From Moraxellaceae bacterium (lineage in GTDB: Bacteria; Pseudomonadota; Gammaproteobacteria; Pseudomonadales; Moraxellaceae): a DNA stretch of 64,000 nucleotides. Each line of letters begins with the position of its first letter. The first letter of the stretch is position 1. A program made the translations under genes and the position numbers. Positions 15,267-24,489 of this stretch are shown piece by piece. The stretch covers positions 62,001 to 126,000 of the forward strand of contig SECL01000005.1 of assembly GCA_004173455.1 (NCBI GenBank), given 5' to 3'. A model generated the notes under the pieces. The model made no database searches and was not told where the DNA came from. It saw only the letters and a list, made by a program, of their open reading frames with translations.

Positions 15267-15584
15267 ATGCGTGTTGATGAATGGATTTTATGGCTACTTG
15301 CACATCTGCTTCTATATAAATGTTAAATTTTAATATTTAAAAAGGAGTTTTCACACGATAGATACTGTTGCCGCAGTACACATTGATGGAGAAAAAATTA
15401 CCATAAGCCAGCGGTTTCTTCAAAAATTCATCATTATTTTTTGACGCCGAGGTATATGATGCGCTGATTCATCTGATGGTTTTGCCAGCAGCCTGATGTA
15501 TAGCAATCCGTGCCCTGAACCCTTTAAGCTTATTTCACCTGTCCTGTGGCAGCGTGATGCTTTTTGCATTTTTGAGTGTGTCAC

Positions 15585-17594
15585 ATGACGCGTTTTTTCT
15601 CCTTATTGTCGATGATATTGTGCATGCTGATTGCCCCGACCAGCTATGCCAAATCCATCACGTTTAATAAATCAACTAATCCGGTTGCTGCACATTTGCC
15701 AGCCGAACTCACTGTGATTGGCTACCATGAAATTGTAGCATCCAAGCAAGCGCTGATTGCCGATTATGCGGTTGCACCGCAGCAGTTTGAACAACAATTA
15801 CTCTGGCTCAAAAGTCATGGCTTTCATTTTGTCAGTATGGATGAGGTGCTGGCTGCCCGGGCCGGTAAACAAGCCCTGCCCGCCAAAGCTGTATTGCTGA
15901 GTTTTGACGATGGCTATGAATCGTTTTATCAGCACGCGTATCCGCTCATAAAAAAATATAACATTCCAGTGGTGCTGGCGCTGGTCGGCAACTGGCTCGC
16001 CCCTGACGATACGCAGCCAGTGGATTTTGATGGCCAGCACATTGACCGCAGCACTATGTTTAGCTGGACGCAATTGCAGGAAATGAATGACAGTGGGTTG
16101 GTGGAAATTGCCAGCCATACTTTTGATTTGCATGATGGCATTCTGGCCAATCCACAAGGCAACATGCAGCCTGCCGTGACCGCGCGCCTCTATGATCCGG
16201 GCAGCCAAAGCTATGAGTCTGATCTGGCCTATCACACGCGCCTGTATAATGACTTTAAGGCCAATAATGACCTGTTGATTAAACATGGCTTAAAAAAACC
16301 GCGGATTATGGTCTGGCCATACGGTCGCTATAATAATGAAGCACTGGACATTGCTAACCAGCTTGGCATGCCGATTACCTTTACACTCGATGATGGCCCC
16401 AACCTGCCCTCTACGCCGCTTTCCGTGTTGCGCCGTATTCTGGTGGACAGCAGCATGACGCCCAGTGATCTCGGTCAGGAAATCAGCATTCGCGAGCAGT
16501 TGCTGACCGACAATAACCGTGCCCAAAAAATCATGCATGTCGATCTGGATTATATTTATGATCCCGACCCCGCGCAGCAGGAGCGTAATCTGGGGCATTT
16601 GCTGGATCGGATTGCGGCCATGCATGTCAATACGGTGTACTTGCAAGCCTTTTCCGACCCAGATGCCAATGGTTCAGCCGATATGGTGTATTTTCCCAAC
16701 CGGCATTTACCGATGCGGGCGGACTTGTTTAACCGGGTTGCATGGCAAATCCGTACCCGCACGCAGGTCAAACGAGTCTATGCATGGATGCCTTTGCTGG
16801 CGTGGGAATTGCCCGACAATGATCCCGCGTCCAAAGATGTGATGATGGCTGAACAGGCTAACGACAGTCAGCACTTGAACATGGGCTATCATCGGCTATC
16901 GCCATTTTCACCGCTGGCACGCCAAACCATTACTGAAATTTATCAGGATCTGGCCAAGTCAGTGCCGTTTGATGGCATTCTGTTTCATGATGATGTGACC
17001 ATGTCAGATTACGAAGATGCCAGCCCCAAGGCTAAAGCCCAATATACAGCTTGGGGTTTGCCCAGTGATCTAAATGCTATTCGGAGTAACGACCAATTAC
17101 TGCAAAAATGGACGGCGCTTAAAACCCAGACTCTGGATGATTTTGCGCTGTCACTGGCCGCCGAAGTCCGCAAGCAGCAGCCTTGTCTGCTTACGGCACG
17201 TAACCTGTATGCGCAGGTCGCGCTCAAAGCCTATGCAGAAAACTGGTATGCGCAATCGCTGGAAAACTCATTGCGCGATTATGATTTTACCGCCATCATG
17301 GCCATGCCTTATATGGAGCAGGCCAAAGACCCGGATGCGTTTTATGCCAGTATCGTCAAACGGGTCAAAAGCTATCCCGAAGGGCTGAAAAAAACCGTGT
17401 TTGAATTGCAGGCAACCGACTGGCGCACCAACACCCCCGTATCGACCGAGGAACTGGCCAACACCATCAGCAAGTTGTATTTACAGGGTGTGCGCCATGT
17501 AGGCTACTATCCGGATGACCCGATCAAGGATCACCCCGATCCATTGATGTTGCGCCGGGTATTTGACAGTAAATCCAGTGCAGCCTTGCCCTAA
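15585..17594 (+). CDS. pgaB: Poly-beta-1,6-N-acetyl-D-glucosamine N-deacetylase PgaB
   Basis: NodB/CE4 motif LLSFDDGYESFYQHAYPLIKKYNIPVVLAL, IASHTFDLH, and C-terminal glycoside-hydrolase-like domain (YLQAFSDPDANG, DGILFHDDVTMSDYEDASP). Confidence 0.93.
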   Translation: MTRFFSLLSMILCMLIAPTSYAKSITFNKSTNPVAAHLPAELTVIGYHEIVASKQALIADYAVAPQQFEQQLLWLKSHGFHFVSMDEVLAARAGKQALPAKAVLLSFDDGYESFYQHAYPLIKKYNIPVVLALVGNWLAPDDTQPVDFDGQHIDRSTMFSWTQLQEMNDSGLVEIASHTFDLHDGILANPQGNMQPAVTARLYDPGSQSYESDLAYHTRLYNDFKANNDLLIKHGLKKPRIMVWPYGRYNNEALDIANQLGMPITFTLDDGPNLPSTPLSVLRRILVDSSMTPSDLGQEISIREQLLTDNNRAQKIMHVDLDYIYDPDPAQQERNLGHLLDRIAAMHVNTVYLQAFSDPDANGSADMVYFPNRHLPMRADLFNRVAWQIRTRTQVKRVYAWMPLLAWELPDNDPASKDVMMAEQANDSQHLNMGYHRLSPFSPLARQTITEIYQDLAKSVPFDGILFHDDVTMSDYEDASPKAKAQYTAWGLPSDLNAIRSNDQLLQKWTALKTQTLDDFALSLAAEVRKQQPCLLTARNLYAQVALKAYAENWYAQSLENSLRDYDFTAIMAMPYMEQAKDPDAFYASIVKRVKSYPEGLKKTVFELQATDWRTNTPVSTEELANTISKLYLQGVRHVGYYPDDPIKDHPDPLMLRRVFDSKSSAALP

Positions 17595-18875
17595 ATGGTG
17601 ACTCTCTTGCTCAATCACCTTGCACACTTATGGCACTTGCTGCTGGGTTTTGTGTTTTATTATCCCCTGTTTATGTCGTATCTGTGGATGATGGGCGCAC
17701 TGCTATTTTACCGGCGCGAACGCAAAGAACCAGCGTACCACACGCCGCCTTTATTGCCCAATCCGCCGGCGGTGAGTGTGCTTGTTCCCTGCTTTAATGA
17801 GGGTGACAATGCCGAAGAAACCATCCGGCATGCACTGGCACTGCACTATCCGGACTTTGAGGTCATTGCCATTAACGATGGCAGCACCGACAACACCGCT
17901 GATGTGCTAAACCGGCTGGCCGCACAGCACGACAGGCTCAAGGTGGTGCATCTGGCACGCAATCAGGGCAAGGCCATGGCATTACAGGCCGGTAGTCTTT
18001 TGGCCAGAGCCGAGTACCTGATTGGCATTGATGGCGATGCGCTGCTTGACCCGCATGCAGCGCACTGGATGGTGCGGCATTTTGAAAAAGACCCAAGCGT
18101 TGCGGCCGTCACCGGCAATCCGCGCATCCGTACCCGTACCACCTTGCTGGGCAAGATTCAGGTGGGTGAGTTTTCTTCCATTGTCGGCATGATCAAGCGG
18201 GCGCAGCGTAGTTTTGGTCGGCTGTTTACCGTGTCGGGGGTGATTACAGCCTTTCGCAAAAGTGCCGTGCATGACGTAGGTTACTGGTCGGCCGATATGC
18301 TCACTGAGGATATTGATATTACCTGGAAACTACAGCGTGCGGGTTGGGACATCCAGTTTGAACCCAATGCTCTGGTGTGGATTTTGATGCCGGAAACCCT
18401 CAATGGCTTGTGGAAACAGCGACTGCGCTGGGCCATGGGCGGCGCACAGGTTTTGCTCAAAAATCTGGATGTGTTTTTTAAACCCAAACAAAACTTTTTG
18501 TGGCCACTCATGCTGGAACTTTGTCTGTCATTGGTGTGGTCATACCTGATGCTGCTGGTGGCCGTGCTGTGGCTAATCAGTTTTATCCTGCCCGTGCATA
18601 CCCTGCCTGTGATTGGCTCACCGTTTGTGCCACATGGAACAGGTATTTTTCTGGGGGCAACCTGCCTGATCCAGTTTGCCTTAAGCAAATGGATGGACAG
18701 TCGTTATGAGTCGCGTCTGGGTCGCAATTATTACTGGATGATCTGGTATCCACTGGTGTTCTGGATGATCAATATTTGCTCCACGATTGTGGCTTTTCCC
18801 AAGGTGTTATTACGCCGCGACGGCAAGCGGGCACGCTGGGTTAGTCCCGATCGTGGTGTTCGTCCTAATCTTTAA
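17595..18875 (+). CDS. pgaC: Poly-beta-1,6-N-acetyl-D-glucosamine synthase PgaC (copy 1)
   Basis: GT2 motifs INDGSTDNT, IDGDALL, TEDIDITW, QRLRWAMGG; C-terminal TM segments. ATG abuts the pgaB stop. Confidence 0.93.
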   Translation: MVTLLLNHLAHLWHLLLGFVFYYPLFMSYLWMMGALLFYRRERKEPAYHTPPLLPNPPAVSVLVPCFNEGDNAEETIRHALALHYPDFEVIAINDGSTDNTADVLNRLAAQHDRLKVVHLARNQGKAMALQAGSLLARAEYLIGIDGDALLDPHAAHWMVRHFEKDPSVAAVTGNPRIRTRTTLLGKIQVGEFSSIVGMIKRAQRSFGRLFTVSGVITAFRKSAVHDVGYWSADMLTEDIDITWKLQRAGWDIQFEPNALVWILMPETLNGLWKQRLRWAMGGAQVLLKNLDVFFKPKQNFLWPLMLELCLSLVWSYLMLLVAVLWLISFILPVHTLPVIGSPFVPHGTGIFLGATCLIQFALSKWMDSRYESRLGRNYYWMIWYPLVFWMINICSTIVAFPKVLLRRDGKRARWVSPDRGVRPNL

Positions 18876-18917
18876 CTACAGCCTTAAATACAGCTTTACC
18901 TCTAACCTTAAATCTAA

Positions 18918-19340
18918 ATGGTCGTGAATCACATGAATCATGCGTTAATTATCGATGCCCGCCAGCAATTGCACTGGCATCAGCGTTTGTTTTCCGATAC
19001 CTCAACTGCCATGATGTGGGGTGTCTGGTTGCTGTTGTGGCGTCCGGTGCTGGTGTTTACTTGGGTGGTCAGCATTCATCATCCGGCATCGCTGCTACAT
19101 CTGGTCAGCATGGCCAGTTTTGAGGACGCCATGACAGCCTTGTTTTCAGCCGTTGCCGCGTTGCTACTGTGGAGTACGCTGCCGTCAGATAAAGTCCAAA
19201 ATCCGGCAAACCGCACGCTGGACGACTATGCCCGTCATTTTAAGATGCAGCCCATTCAGATTGAAGCGGGTCGCGCGCAAAATATCTGTGTGGTGCATCA
19301 TGATGATCACGGCAATATTGTGCGTATTGAATCCGCCTGA
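18918..19340 (+). CDS. pgaD: PgaD-like PNAG synthesis accessory protein (copy 1)
   Basis: Short two-TM protein immediately after pgaC: LIIDARQQLHWHQRLFSDTSTAMMWGVWLLLWRPVL. Confidence 0.8.
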   Translation: MVVNHMNHALIIDARQQLHWHQRLFSDTSTAMMWGVWLLLWRPVLVFTWVVSIHHPASLLHLVSMASFEDAMTALFSAVAALLLWSTLPSDKVQNPANRTLDDYARHFKMQPIQIEAGRAQNICVVHHDDHGNIVRIESA

Positions 19341-19464
19341 TCCCAAAGCATGTTCGAGCGTTCATCATATCCAGCAAGCCTAAGCGCTTTTAAACGGCAG
19401 GTTGCCGATGAACGCTGGTCAAGCTTATTTTTTTATTTTAATCAGTATTTTAACTGAAAATAAC

Positions 19465-20004
19465 TTACACGAGTTTATCATCAGGTAATGGCACAGACGG
19501 CAATGTTGGAAAGGCCATATTGACAATTTTGCCATGCCGATCATAAAAGAACAGATTAATCTGTGCGGCCTGTGCCTGCTCTACCATACCGGTTTCCAGC
19601 TCATAAAAATGCGCGGCATCACTGGGCTGCACATCCGGCATGGCATGACGACGTTCGTTGTTATAAAAACGCAGGATATTATAAGACGCCCACGCCAGTA
19701 GCATTAATCCCAAAATCATGACCAGAGCCACCAGTGCCGTCATGTTCTGGGTAAACCCGTGCTGGTAATCATGAACGATATATTGGTCAAAGCGGTGCCA
19801 GCCAAACCACCATGCCAACAGGCTCAGTAGTGGCACAAACAGGTACAGCCACACCATCAGGCCAATAACTGCAATCGTGCCAAACACACCGCGCTGTGAC
19901 CAGCTTTGCAAATCCGGCCGGTCAATAAAGGCCGGTAACACCACATCTTCATGCTTAAAGTTTTTGTCCAGAATCGTTTCAATGCCTATCTTGGATTTAT
20001 TCAA
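19465..20004 (-). CDS. pgaD: PgaD-like PNAG synthesis accessory protein (copy 2)
   Basis: FIDRPDLQSWSQRGVFGTIAVIGLMVWLYLFVPLLSLLAWWFGWHRF; two TM; downstream of second pgaC. Confidence 0.8.
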   Translation of the reverse strand: MNKSKIGIETILDKNFKHEDVVLPAFIDRPDLQSWSQRGVFGTIAVIGLMVWLYLFVPLLSLLAWWFGWHRFDQYIVHDYQHGFTQNMTALVALVMILGLMLLAWASYNILRFYNNERRHAMPDVQPSDAAHFYELETGMVEQAQAAQINLFFYDRHGKIVNMAFPTLPSVPLPDDKLV

Positions 20005-20061
20005 TGGTGTTCTCTCTTTCTGTGCTCAATACTCAATGGACTCTCGCCCGTTTCCGTTGCG

Positions 20062-21339
20062 TTACACACTAATACCACGATCCGGGCTTTCCCAGCGTGC
20101 GCGTTTTTTTGACCGCTTGAGCAGGGCTTTGGGCACCGCCACCACCGTGGTGAGCATGGACAAAATCCAGTACAGCAACGGATACCAGATCACCCAGATA
20201 TAGTTGCGCAACAAGCGCCCCTGATCATAGCGACGATCCATCCACAGGCTAATCAAAAATTGCACCAGACAGGTCAAGCCCAAGAACAGGCCATACACTT
20301 GCGGTAAAATACTGGCGACGTACCAGCTTTTAGGCAGGTCAATAAATAAGCCCATAAAGTACAAGATAAAAATAATCAGCATGGCATACGACCAACCCAC
20401 GCTCAGCAAATATTCAAACGCCACGCCCCAGAAGCGGCGCGCTTTCCAGTGAAATAACGCCTTGCCATACTTGAGCAATACCTCGACCCCGCCCTGTGCC
20501 CAGCGCAACCGCTGGCTCCATAATCCCTTTAGCGTTTCTGGCATATACAGGTAGCACAAGGCCTGCGCCTCATAGCGAATATCCCAGTGATCCAGTTGCA
20601 GGCGCCATGAAATATCAATGTCTTCGGTGACAATGTTTTCACTCCAGTAACCCACTCGGTGCAATGCGGTTTTACGAAAGCCGGCGATCGCACCCGACAC
20701 GGTAAAGATACGGCCATAAGTCCGCTGTGCGCGCTTGATCAAACCAATAATGGAAGAAAACTCACCCACCTGAATCTTGCCCAGCAAACTGGAACGATTG
20801 ATGATGCGCGGATTGCCTGTCACTGCGCCCACCCGGGGGCCACTCAGCAAATGATCCATCATCCAGTGTACCGTGTACGGATGCAGCAAGGCATCGCCAT
20901 CGATACATACCAGATATTCATGCTTGCTCACCAGCGCACCAGCGCGTAAAGCAAACGCCTTGCCCTGATTATTGGTCAAATGCACGATGCGGATACGTGA
21001 ATCCTGCGCGGCCAGTTCCTCAACAATCTGCTCGGTCTGGTCGGTACTGCCGTCATTAATCACAATGACCTCAATATTGGGATAACGGCTAGCCAGCGCA
21101 AAACGCAAGGTCTCGGTGACATGCTGTTCTTCGTTGTAACAGGGAATCAAAATACTGCAACCCGGTGCAGTCTGATCGAATTGCGGCAAGGCTGGCCGGT
21201 GCAATTCGCGGCGCACATAAAACCAGATACCGCCAATCATCCATAGCCATGCCATCAGCAAGGGATAATAAAAGGCAAAAGCAAACAGCGCATTACGCAC
21301 GGATAAATTCTGTAGCCAGTTTAGGGCATCAATCAACAT
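20062..21339 (-). CDS. pgaC: Poly-beta-1,6-N-acetyl-D-glucosamine synthase PgaC (copy 2)
   Basis: Same architecture as copy 1: INDGSTDQT, IDGDALL, TGNPRI, LLGKIQVGEFSSI, TEDIDISW, QRLRWAQGG. Confidence 0.93.
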   Translation of the reverse strand: MLIDALNWLQNLSVRNALFAFAFYYPLLMAWLWMIGGIWFYVRRELHRPALPQFDQTAPGCSILIPCYNEEQHVTETLRFALASRYPNIEVIVINDGSTDQTEQIVEELAAQDSRIRIVHLTNNQGKAFALRAGALVSKHEYLVCIDGDALLHPYTVHWMMDHLLSGPRVGAVTGNPRIINRSSLLGKIQVGEFSSIIGLIKRAQRTYGRIFTVSGAIAGFRKTALHRVGYWSENIVTEDIDISWRLQLDHWDIRYEAQALCYLYMPETLKGLWSQRLRWAQGGVEVLLKYGKALFHWKARRFWGVAFEYLLSVGWSYAMLIIFILYFMGLFIDLPKSWYVASILPQVYGLFLGLTCLVQFLISLWMDRRYDQGRLLRNYIWVIWYPLLYWILSMLTTVVAVPKALLKRSKKRARWESPDRGISV

Positions 21340-21375
21340 AGGTCATACTCGCATGATTTTTATTGTGGTTATTCA

Positions 21376-24300
21376 TCAAAATACGCCGCTCAACCCTAGC
21401 ACGCCATACGTCCGATGCTCACGGTTGCCGTCATAGACCTGACTGCCCCAGCCCACGCCATAGTTGACTTGCCATGTCCGGCTTAACTGCCATTCATGCT
21501 GATACAGCGCATTGACATAGGATTTTCCAGAAAAGCCAGCTTGCTGGTTAATGCCCGTACCCAGCTCAAAATGCTGATTGAAGGACTGTTGCTCATCACC
21601 GCGCCAAGTCATCCAGTCATGTTGCATATTGATGCCATAGCTGAGATTGTGGTCAGGATTAAAGTAACTGCCGCCGGGCTGACTGTTGGTTTCATAAAAC
21701 GCTTCCAGTCCACCGGTAGTAATGTGTTTTTCATTGGCAAACAGGCGCTGGTTAAAGGCACCCGATAGCGACTGGCGCAAATTGCCATCGCTAATGTCCA
21801 ATGCCTGATAATTAAACGAAGCGTTGCGTGATTCATGCTGCCGCCAGTCCACACCAGCCTGATAACCATTGGCATCTAGCCCTGCTTCCAGCGCACGCAG
21901 CGGAATTTGTGCGCTGTTATAGTCATAACCCAACCGATAACGCCAGTGATCGTTCAGCCAGTGTCCCCAGCCTGCGCTAACCCCTGTTTTATGTTGGCCA
22001 GCTTGCCGGTCACTCTGAGCTTGGCTGGCCTGATTACCCAGTTGCTGATTGATTAAAACCCAAGCACTTTTGCGATCCTGTTGCCACTCGGCGCCCAGCC
22101 CTAGTCGCTGATCACGCTGATGGGTTGGCTCCAGATCAGCCCAGCGATCCTGATGATCGGCAAACATGCGCCAGTGACCAATCATCAGGCCATCTAGCCA
22201 TGGGCTGTTGATGCGGGTATGCCACTCGCGGTCACGACTGCCATTTACACTGTTCAGTGTTTTCTCATCAGCCTGACTACGACCAATGTTCAGATCACTT
22301 TGCAGGGTCACACGTTGGCGATCTTGCCATTCCTGCTGTGCCTTGAGCACACCACTATTGTTGGGGGCTTTTTGACTGGCCTTGTCCAGTGCGTTTTTCC
22401 AGTCTACGTCGTGCTGCAAGTCACGCGCATTGCTGGTGGTGGTTAAATCCAGCGCAACGCTATAAGGCGCTTTTTCATAGGCCTGCTGCACCACCTGATC
22501 CGCAGCTTGCGGTAGACCACGCCAGTTCAAAATCGTGGCGTAATCATTGGCCAGATTAATATTGTCCGGATTTTGCGCAACCAGTTGCTGAAGCTTAGGT
22601 GCGGCAATATCCAGTCGGTTACGGTATGCGGCATCCAGTGCAAGCATCTGTTCTACCCGCACGCGAGTATTGTGGGCATTCACATCGGTCTTACTGTCAG
22701 TGACTGCTGGAAATTGCTGATCCAGTGCGGCCAGTCGCTCACTGGCTTGCGGGTATTGTTCCTGTTCCAGCAAGGCATAATAATCGGCAATTAACAGCTC
22801 GGCATCCGGTTGTAGGACGTTATCCAATAAATATTGATAAATTTCATGCGCTTTTTGTGGCTGCTTGCGTGCCAGATAGGCATCGGCCACAGCCTGCTTG
22901 GCATAGGGCTGCAATTGGAACTGTTCACTCACCGACAGTTGCTGATATTGCTTAATCAGCTCGGGCAACCGCTCATTCACCCGTAAGGCATACAGATAAT
23001 CATTAAACAGCGGCGGATATTGTTCGCTGCTTTTATCCAGTTGATCAAGTGCCTGCCGTAACGCCAGAATATTTTGGTCAATGCGCTGGCGTGCCTGCTG
23101 ATACTGACCCTGTGCTTCCAGTGCATCCTTTTGTTTTAAAGCAGCCTGTAAATTTTGGCTAAGCCAATCTGCTTTAACCGGCCAAAGCATATTTTCCGAA
23201 AAAACCTCAGGATGCTGAAGAGCCAGTTGATAGGCTGCCTCGGTCTGGTTCAGATTGCTCAGCGCGACAAACTGCTGTTCCAGCGCCAGCCGCTGCTGGG
23301 GATTTAAGGCCAGTGCCCGCTGGCTGGAAACAATGGCTTGCTCTGAAAAACCAGCCAGCCGCTGAATATAGGCCAGTCGTGCATATTGATCCGCATCAAG
23401 CTGACCTTGCTGCAATGATGGTATTAGTTGCTGCACTACCGTGGTTTGTCCAGCTTCAGCAGCCAATGTCGCGTAATACCACGGATCAATACGCGCTGGG
23501 TGATGTGGCAAATTATCCGTCTGACGATTGATGTGCTGGGCAATGTCAAAAGCAGACTGGAACTGGCGCTGGTCACGCAAAGCATCTAGCCATGATTTAT
23601 AGGCATAGTCGGGCAGATTTTGCAGTTTGGTCGGTAATTTTTCCTGTTGGCTAAGCTGCACAATATCGGCATTGCGGCCAGCTTTGCGCAGCACCACGAT
23701 CAAATCAGCCGTAATATTGAAATCGTCAGGATTTTGCTGGTGCAACTGGTGGAGCGTGGCAAGTGCCGGTTCAAACTGTTGCTGACTGGCCAGTTTGACG
23801 GCTTGCTGACGCATGAGTTGCTGTTGTTGTGACAAAGCCAGCGGTTGTGCAGGCTGCATACGCAAAGCCTGATCTGCATTGACCAACGCTTTTTGCTCAT
23901 CTCCCGTTAGACGATAGATATAAGCCAGTTGTGCATATTGATCTGCGCTTTGCAGGCTGGCAGGATTAAGGTGCTGTAAAATAGCCTGTGCAGCGCTGAC
24001 CTGACCTGCTTCAGCGGCCAGCGTGGCATAATATAGCGGATCAATCTGAGGAGCTAAACCTTGTGCTGTACGCTGCTGTGCCACCTGATAGGCAAGCTTG
24101 GGTTGCTGGCTATCCCTTAATCCTCCAATCCACGCTATCACGGCATAAGCTGGCATGCGTAATGACTGCTGTTGCAGTGTGGCGCGTCGGGTCAATACAG
24201 CAATGTCTTTATTTCGACCTGCCTGCCGTAAGAGCACCATCAGGTCAGCGGTCACTTTGATGTCGTGAGGTGATCGCTGATGCAACCGCTGCAAAACCAC

Positions 24301-24489
24301 AATAGCCGGCTTTAATTGGCCTTGTCTGGCCAGTTGTACCGCATGTTCACGCTGTTGACTGATACTTAATGCGGTGCCTGCCGGCTTGGCATATAAGGTA
24401 GAAGATACCGAAAAACAGCCTATTTCCAGAAAGAATAAACAACCCAGATAAAGTTTATTTTTTAATGGATCAGGGTAAGATCGCCCCAT
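21376..24489 (-). CDS. pgaA: PNAG outer-membrane export porin PgaA with N-terminal TPR repeats
   Basis: Long TPR region then beta-barrel C-terminus (NSPWLDGLMIGHWRMFADHQDRWADLEPTHQRDQRLGLGAEWQQD ... YGVGWGSQVYDGNREHRTYGVLGLSGVF); adjacent to pgaC/D. Confidence 0.9.
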   Translation of the reverse strand: MGRSYPDPLKNKLYLGCLFFLEIGCFSVSSTLYAKPAGTALSISQQREHAVQLARQGQLKPAIVVLQRLHQRSPHDIKVTADLMVLLRQAGRNKDIAVLTRRATLQQQSLRMPAYAVIAWIGGLRDSQQPKLAYQVAQQRTAQGLAPQIDPLYYATLAAEAGQVSAAQAILQHLNPASLQSADQYAQLAYIYRLTGDEQKALVNADQALRMQPAQPLALSQQQQLMRQQAVKLASQQQFEPALATLHQLHQQNPDDFNITADLIVVLRKAGRNADIVQLSQQEKLPTKLQNLPDYAYKSWLDALRDQRQFQSAFDIAQHINRQTDNLPHHPARIDPWYYATLAAEAGQTTVVQQLIPSLQQGQLDADQYARLAYIQRLAGFSEQAIVSSQRALALNPQQRLALEQQFVALSNLNQTEAAYQLALQHPEVFSENMLWPVKADWLSQNLQAALKQKDALEAQGQYQQARQRIDQNILALRQALDQLDKSSEQYPPLFNDYLYALRVNERLPELIKQYQQLSVSEQFQLQPYAKQAVADAYLARKQPQKAHEIYQYLLDNVLQPDAELLIADYYALLEQEQYPQASERLAALDQQFPAVTDSKTDVNAHNTRVRVEQMLALDAAYRNRLDIAAPKLQQLVAQNPDNINLANDYATILNWRGLPQAADQVVQQAYEKAPYSVALDLTTTSNARDLQHDVDWKNALDKASQKAPNNSGVLKAQQEWQDRQRVTLQSDLNIGRSQADEKTLNSVNGSRDREWHTRINSPWLDGLMIGHWRMFADHQDRWADLEPTHQRDQRLGLGAEWQQDRKSAWVLINQQLGNQASQAQSDRQAGQHKTGVSAGWGHWLNDHWRYRLGYDYNSAQIPLRALEAGLDANGYQAGVDWRQHESRNASFNYQALDISDGNLRQSLSGAFNQRLFANEKHITTGGLEAFYETNSQPGGSYFNPDHNLSYGINMQHDWMTWRGDEQQSFNQHFELGTGINQQAGFSGKSYVNALYQHEWQLSRTWQVNYGVGWGSQVYDGNREHRTYGVLGLSGVF

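Follow-up and report, generated by a model that had tools for sequence, protein, structure and literature searches.

Convergent pga genes between trpS and sucD

The 64,000-nt window analysed here (GenBank assembly GCA_004173455.1, contig SECL01000005.1, positions 62,001 to 126,000; all coordinates below count from its first nucleotide) comes from a 3.0-Mb genome of Alkanindiges, a genus of the Moraxellaceae, and carries six genes for the synthesis and export of poly-N-acetylglucosamine (PNAG), arranged as two convergent units. The forward unit consists of pgaB (15585–17594, + strand), which encodes a 669-amino acid (aa) two-domain protein with a deacetylase and a GH153 hydrolase (TIGR03938, 850 bits; Pfam Polysacc_deac_1 and GHL13), pgaC1 (17595–18875, +), encoding a GT2 PNAG synthase (TIGR03937, 616 bits), and pgaD1 (18918–19340, +), encoding a 140-aa synthase partner (TIGR03940, 100 bits). 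It meets pgaD2 (19465–20004, −; 179-aa partner with a TTG start; TIGR03940, 87 bits), pgaC2 (20062–21339, −; a second GT2 PNAG synthase; TIGR03937, 581 bits) and pgaA (21376–24489, −), which encodes a 1037-aa export porin with a doubled block of tetratricopeptide repeats (TPR) and a β-barrel (TIGR03939, 447 bits; Pfam PgaA_barrel). The intergenic gaps measure 0 nt (pgaB–pgaC1), 42 nt (pgaC1–pgaD1), 124 nt (the convergent pgaD1–pgaD2), 57 nt (pgaD2–pgaC2) and 36 nt (pgaC2–pgaA). A PgaD partner adjoins PgaC in both copies, and pgaA leads directly into pgaC2, leaving the canonical half without a pgaB of its own. This is not the single co-directional pgaABCD operon, as the first-pass annotation of this DNA had recognized, and its description of the convergent six-gene layout holds.

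All six open reading frames are intact and their products, including both PgaC and both PgaD proteins, pass the NCBIfam equivalog cut-offs. PgaC1 and PgaC2 are 55% identical and both retain the DGST, DGDALL, TEDID and QRLRWA motifs; the first-pass view that neither is decayed, and the unequal PgaD lengths that it reported, were borne out. In pairwise comparisons with two sister species, at synonymous divergence near saturation, the ratio of nonsynonymous to synonymous substitution rates (dN/dS) was 0.03–0.16 for each of the six genes (pgaC1, 0.05; pgaD1, 0.08; pgaD2, 0.08–0.12; pgaC2, 0.03). Together, these results indicate that the six genes are under purifying selection and that the arrangement is genuine, long-standing and maintained. 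Genome-wide, PgaC and PgaD each occur twice and PgaA once, and a single protein exceeds the PgaB cut-off; a 276-aa deacetylase-like protein encoded elsewhere scores well under it. A search by sequence returned no match to a solved PgaC or PgaD structure.

The two units are flanked by trpS and sucD and lie tail to tail. The canonical pgaABCD operon of many Acinetobacter species stands beside sucD in the same orientation as pgaA-pgaC2-pgaD2, and in one retrieved case (L209) trpS is close by, on the flank opposite sucD. Because site and orientation are shared with Acinetobacter, the canonical half occupies an old family site. The first-pass annotation had allowed that the layout might be the ordinary one across the genus, which is true of Alkanindiges illinoisensis, where the six-gene layout is identical, but not of Alkanindiges hydrocarboniclasticus, where the order is trpS, pgaB, pgaD2-pgaC2-pgaA, sucD, and PgaC1 and PgaD1 are absent. 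The latter genome encodes one each of PgaC, PgaD, PgaA and (above cut-off) PgaB. Downstream of its pgaB, 115 nt retain 75% identity to the end of the window pgaB and the first approximately 80 nt of pgaC1; the pgaC1 start codon has been lost, and this remnant indicates that pgaC1-pgaD1 was once present and then deleted. A fourth genome of the genus (G002) was dropped as a pga-less control, as searches of it also failed to find sucA and sucD and gave only a weak 33% match for trpS.

Two old Moraxellaceae lineages at one site

In a tree of 104 PgaC proteins, with branch support from the Shimodaira–Hasegawa-like approximate likelihood-ratio test (SH-aLRT), PgaC1 falls in a clade made up solely of Moraxellaceae PgaC from pgaB-pgaC-pgaD loci (SH-aLRT 99), next to Acinetobacter (98). 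PgaC2 belongs to the other main clade, where it groups with the canonical operons of G187, a genome of the same family (97), and then with those of Acinetobacter. The window PgaB likewise lies in the Moraxellaceae PgaB1 clade, as sister to Acinetobacter PgaB1. Among the loci retrieved, the PgaB1-C1-D1 locus of Acinetobacter and other genera stands alone, with no pgaA beside it; no porin was recognized upstream of Acinetobacter pgaBCD, where the neighbours inspected by eye resemble an FKBP-type isomerase, an acyltransferase and an aconitase. TIGR03939 PgaA is missing from 69 of the 149 genomes with PgaC. Approximately 60 genomes show two PgaC matches, so two pgaC genes per genome are ordinary in the family. 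Canonical operons of Acinetobacter, G187 and the outgroups carry pgaB between pgaA and pgaC, which Alkanindiges does not.

On these phylogenies and gene orders, we regard the two halves as ancient Moraxellaceae systems, a porin-less pgaBCD locus and a canonical pgaABCD operon, that normally lie far apart, and the canonical operon in Alkanindiges as having lost its own pgaB. The first-pass annotation had instead pictured a single operon that was split with duplication of its synthase; the PgaC tree replaces this by two anciently diverged loci that are now adjacent, one pgaB having been lost. It is very improbable that pgaCD was recently duplicated inside a single operon or that either half was recently acquired by horizontal transfer from a donor outside the family: the best extra-family matches of PgaC2 in a first search of the contig were indeed to Halothiobacillus, Thioalkalivibrio and Xanthomonadaceae, but the copies are just 55% identical, the nearest kin of both PgaC proteins are Moraxellaceae in a well-supported tree, and the site is common to Acinetobacter. 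Recent tandem duplication was ruled out by this identity together with the two ancient clades, and acquisition of pgaA-pgaC2-pgaD2 from Halothiobacillus or Xanthomonadaceae was ruled out once Moraxellaceae canonical operons had been sampled.

The closest known counterpart is Acinetobacter baumannii, for which passages of PMC9935895 describe pgaBCD (A1S_0938-0940) and pgaABCD (A1S_2162-2159), with AbPgaB1 and AbPgaB2 32% identical; earlier work had described the operon as partially duplicated (PMC7112194). The same gene lineages, PgaB1-C1-D1 and PgaA-C2-D2, occur in both organisms. In A. baumannii, however, a long distance separates the loci and PgaB2 is retained in the canonical one, whereas Alkanindiges has them side by side and convergent and lacks the canonical pgaB. 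The forward unit matches the A1S_0938-0940 type in its B-C-D order and in the clades of PgaC1 and PgaB1, but instead of lying away from pgaA it has pgaA 5 kb off in the convergent unit. Canonical pgaABCD operons (Escherichia coli; the sucD site of Acinetobacter) use the same protein families, and those at the Acinetobacter sucD/trpS site agree with pgaA-pgaC2-pgaD2 in position and orientation. Alkanindiges differs from them in having no pgaB between pgaA and pgaC, in a PgaB that comes from the convergent gene, in an extra C–D pair and in the doubled TPR of PgaA. Neither the protein families nor the two loci are new, and genomes with two pga loci were known before. In the literature searched, we found no description of such a composite, joined tail to tail and with only one PgaB, which belongs to the non-canonical lineage, and among the loci retrieved the adjacency and convergence of both loci with a pgaB-less canonical half occur only in Alkanindiges.

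Other unusual pga layouts were seen among the retrieved loci. The metagenome-assembled genome (MAG) REEB393 (G187) has two complete tandem pgaABCD operons (L143, 1470-15064) and, on a different contig (L144), a third pga locus of the pgaBCD type. A pgaA followed by pgaC and pgaD with no PgaB match between them occurs in Wenzhouxiangella MAGs (L057, L076 and L091) and in HTCC2143 (L121), and Lysobacter loci L102 and L112 have two tandem pgaC-pgaD pairs behind pgaA-pgaB, an independent two-synthase layout.

Hydrolase residues of PgaB and stand-alone GH153 genes

The distribution of the hydrolase domain is a stronger lead than the layout. PgaB deacetylates PNAG and can cut the deacetylated polymer through its GH153 hydrolase domain, according to passages of PMC5933820. 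In the window PgaB, the metal-binding or catalytic deacetylase residues D108, D109, H178 and H183 are intact, as are D320, D322, D358, H468, D469 and E578 of the GH153 domain, which correspond to D326, D328, D364, H473, D474 and E585 of the Bordetella protein as given in those passages; in Bordetella, D474 is the catalytic Asp, and D326, D328 and D364 belong to the substrate site. The full set of both domains is also kept in 29/29 other Moraxellaceae PgaB1 proteins. Canonical Acinetobacter PgaB proteins keep the deacetylase residues (43/43) and lack the catalytic Asp and the preceding His of GH153 (0/43 each); the string HDD does not occur in the C-terminal half of any of the 43. In 20 further copies the catalytic Asp is likewise missing, for a total of 63 that includes L132, L155, L166 and L175. 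The alignment of this domain is less certain because in canonical PgaB it is only approximately 20% identical to PgaB1; nonetheless, the motif is plainly missing, and we infer that hydrolase activity was lost along with these residues. In G187, the GH153 residues of PgaB are partly lost in both tandem operons.

An intact GH153 domain is encoded separately. Many Acinetobacter genomes with pgaABCD at the sucD site have, at the place of the Alkanindiges pgaB, a convergent gene for a protein of approximately 390–470 aa that consists of a GH153/GHL13 domain only, with no deacetylase domain, and that lies tail to tail with pgaD of the canonical operon. Its catalytic residues are intact in 17/17 copies checked. 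Examples are L156:6195-7472, L166:3394-4632 and L209:9165-10364, with similar places in L165, L170, L174, L177, L179-L182, L185, L188, L192, L193, L196, L198, L202, L208, L210-L213, L216-L218 and L220. The stand-alone domain branches, with full support, as the sister group of Moraxellaceae PgaB1 as a whole, and the tree gives no support to an origin as a truncated local PgaB1; approximately unbiased (AU) tests allow an origin inside the Acinetobacter/Alkanindiges PgaB1 group (p = 0.29 and 0.32) and do not reject it.

All 74 Acinetobacter-genus genomes (group g2) with canonical PgaA contain a GH153 homologue of the intact kind. Taking a second PgaC as the mark of a pgaBCD locus with PgaB1, we found one in 60 of the 74, and the stand-alone GH153 gene in all of the other 14, one of which (G047) also encodes a PgaB1-length protein; both are present in 13 of the 60. 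Fisher's test on these counts gave p = 4e-8 with relatedness ignored, and a pairs test on the PgaC2 tree for loss of pgaBCD only where a GH153-only gene is present gave 3 to 0 with three ties, too few for significance. We put forward, tentatively and at a little under even confidence, that in Moraxellaceae deacetylation may have been separated from hydrolysis: the GH153 site would have been lost in canonical Acinetobacter PgaB, an intact GH153 would be supplied in trans by PgaB1 or the stand-alone gene, and Alkanindiges would have placed full-length PgaB1 with its synthase pair at the tail-to-tail position and discarded the canonical PgaB. A strict link between the stand-alone gene and pga is called into question by genomes that have it with no PgaC or PgaA match (G053, G136 and G173) and by in-frame stops in three copies in the search output (G040, G132 and G173). 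No description of GH153 loss in canonical Acinetobacter PgaB together with intact GH153 in trans was found in titles and abstracts naming GH153 or in passages of PMC5933820 and PMC9935895, with subscription literature outside this scope.

One predicted pathway with two synthases

From the gene families, the polymer made here is predicted to be PNAG, that is, partly deacetylated poly-β-1,6-GlcNAc. PgaA exports PNAG. PgaC-PgaD polymerizes it and is activated by cyclic di-GMP (PMC8461298), and passages of PMC9935895 report that AbPgaB1 deacetylates PNAG and supports A. baumannii biofilm, its deletion lowering exopolysaccharide and biofilm. The composite locus probably constitutes one PNAG pathway with two synthases that share PgaB and PgaA, with PgaC1-PgaD1 as an accessory pair, formed from two old Moraxellaceae loci at the trpS–sucD site. 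PgaC2-PgaD2 would be the core synthase, expressed with PgaA; PgaB would partially deacetylate and trim the polymer in the periplasm through its deacetylase and GH153 domains, and the single PgaA would export it. PgaC1-PgaD1 would act as a second, dispensable synthase, transcribed from the pgaB promoter and feeding the same PgaB and PgaA, such that more pgaB transcript would raise deacetylase and synthase jointly, independently of the porin operon and with the porin unchanged. The best evidence that PgaB can work with PgaA-C2-D2, and that PgaC1-PgaD1 is dispensable, is the gene content of A. hydrocarboniclasticus.

The halves have separate upstream regions, in keeping with the first-pass annotation, and these regions differ. 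A 24-bp block upstream of pgaB (15414–15437, +), a candidate operator or promoter element, is conserved in three Alkanindiges species, with 0–2 mismatches in the sister species, and is absent upstream of other Moraxellaceae pgaB1 genes; its 19-bp core has no other match in the genome at ≤2 mismatches. Separate regulation of the halves is plausible and fits this block. Scans for consensus promoters and terminators gave matches no more numerous than in shuffled sequences. A riboswitch in the leaders was considered and dropped, as there was no Rfam match and the pgaB leader folded no better than shuffles.

Three points weigh against the one-pathway proposal. In two species PgaC1-PgaD1 evolves under strong purifying selection and is therefore not simply redundant there; it may have a porin-independent job, because pgaBCD persists elsewhere in Moraxellaceae without a recognized PgaA; and only three Alkanindiges genomes are informative. 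The second point underlies a rival with two outputs, in which PgaB-C1-D1 would keep an ancestral porin-independent role, making periplasmic or differently exported poly-GlcNAc, while PgaA-C2-D2 would export PNAG and borrow PgaB. Roughly 70 Moraxellaceae genomes have pgaBCD with no recognized PgaA and no adjacent porin gene, which implies some PgaA-independent function there, and the ancient divergence of the two PgaC proteins and the differing upstream regions point the same way. We nevertheless consider two outputs unlikely here, as both PgaC proteins pass the same PNAG-synthase equivalog cut-off, PgaB was retained with PgaA-C2-D2 after PgaC1-PgaD1 was deleted in A. hydrocarboniclasticus, AbPgaB1 deletion has the effects on exopolysaccharide and biofilm given above from PMC9935895, and pgaBCD-only genomes may hold an unrecognized porin. 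Of two further first-pass suggestions, a split into deacetylated polymer from one half and non-deacetylated polymer from the other is unlikely, given a single PgaA and a single full PgaB in the genome and a sister species whose set is PgaB plus PgaA-C2-D2; a second polymer is conceivable but has no support. Still less probable than two outputs is that PgaC1-PgaD1 serves dosage or backup only, a surplus synthase that accompanies pgaB, does nothing distinct and is heading for loss as in A. hydrocarboniclasticus. The deletion in that one species of three, where pgaB was retained, speaks for this reading, but in two species at near-saturated synonymous divergence both genes show dN/dS of 0.05–0.08 and the catalytic motifs are intact.

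In E. coli, the TPR region of PgaA binds PgaB (cited in passages of PMC9935895). In the window PgaA, residues 50–222 match approximately 230–406 at 46% identity (approximately 175 residues), an internal TPR duplication that could be linked to adoption of a PgaB of the other lineage. This link is weak, because the PgaA of G187 is also long (1002 aa) and is encoded next to a canonical PgaB of its own. PgaA proteins of more than 1000 aa were also seen in one Acinetobacter (L172) besides G187.

Alkanindiges presents a natural experiment on exchangeable PNAG parts, with a PgaB of one lineage that probably serves the porin and synthase of the other, and a synthase pair that two species retain and a third has deleted. 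The loss of the GH153 site in canonical Acinetobacter PgaB suggests that, in this genus, trimming of the polymer requires PgaB1 or the stand-alone GH153 protein. Such a dependence might help to account for the reduced biofilm of A. baumannii after deletion of only PgaB1, as reported in passages of PMC9935895. The question of why PgaB has a hydrolase domain at all becomes testable by genetics.

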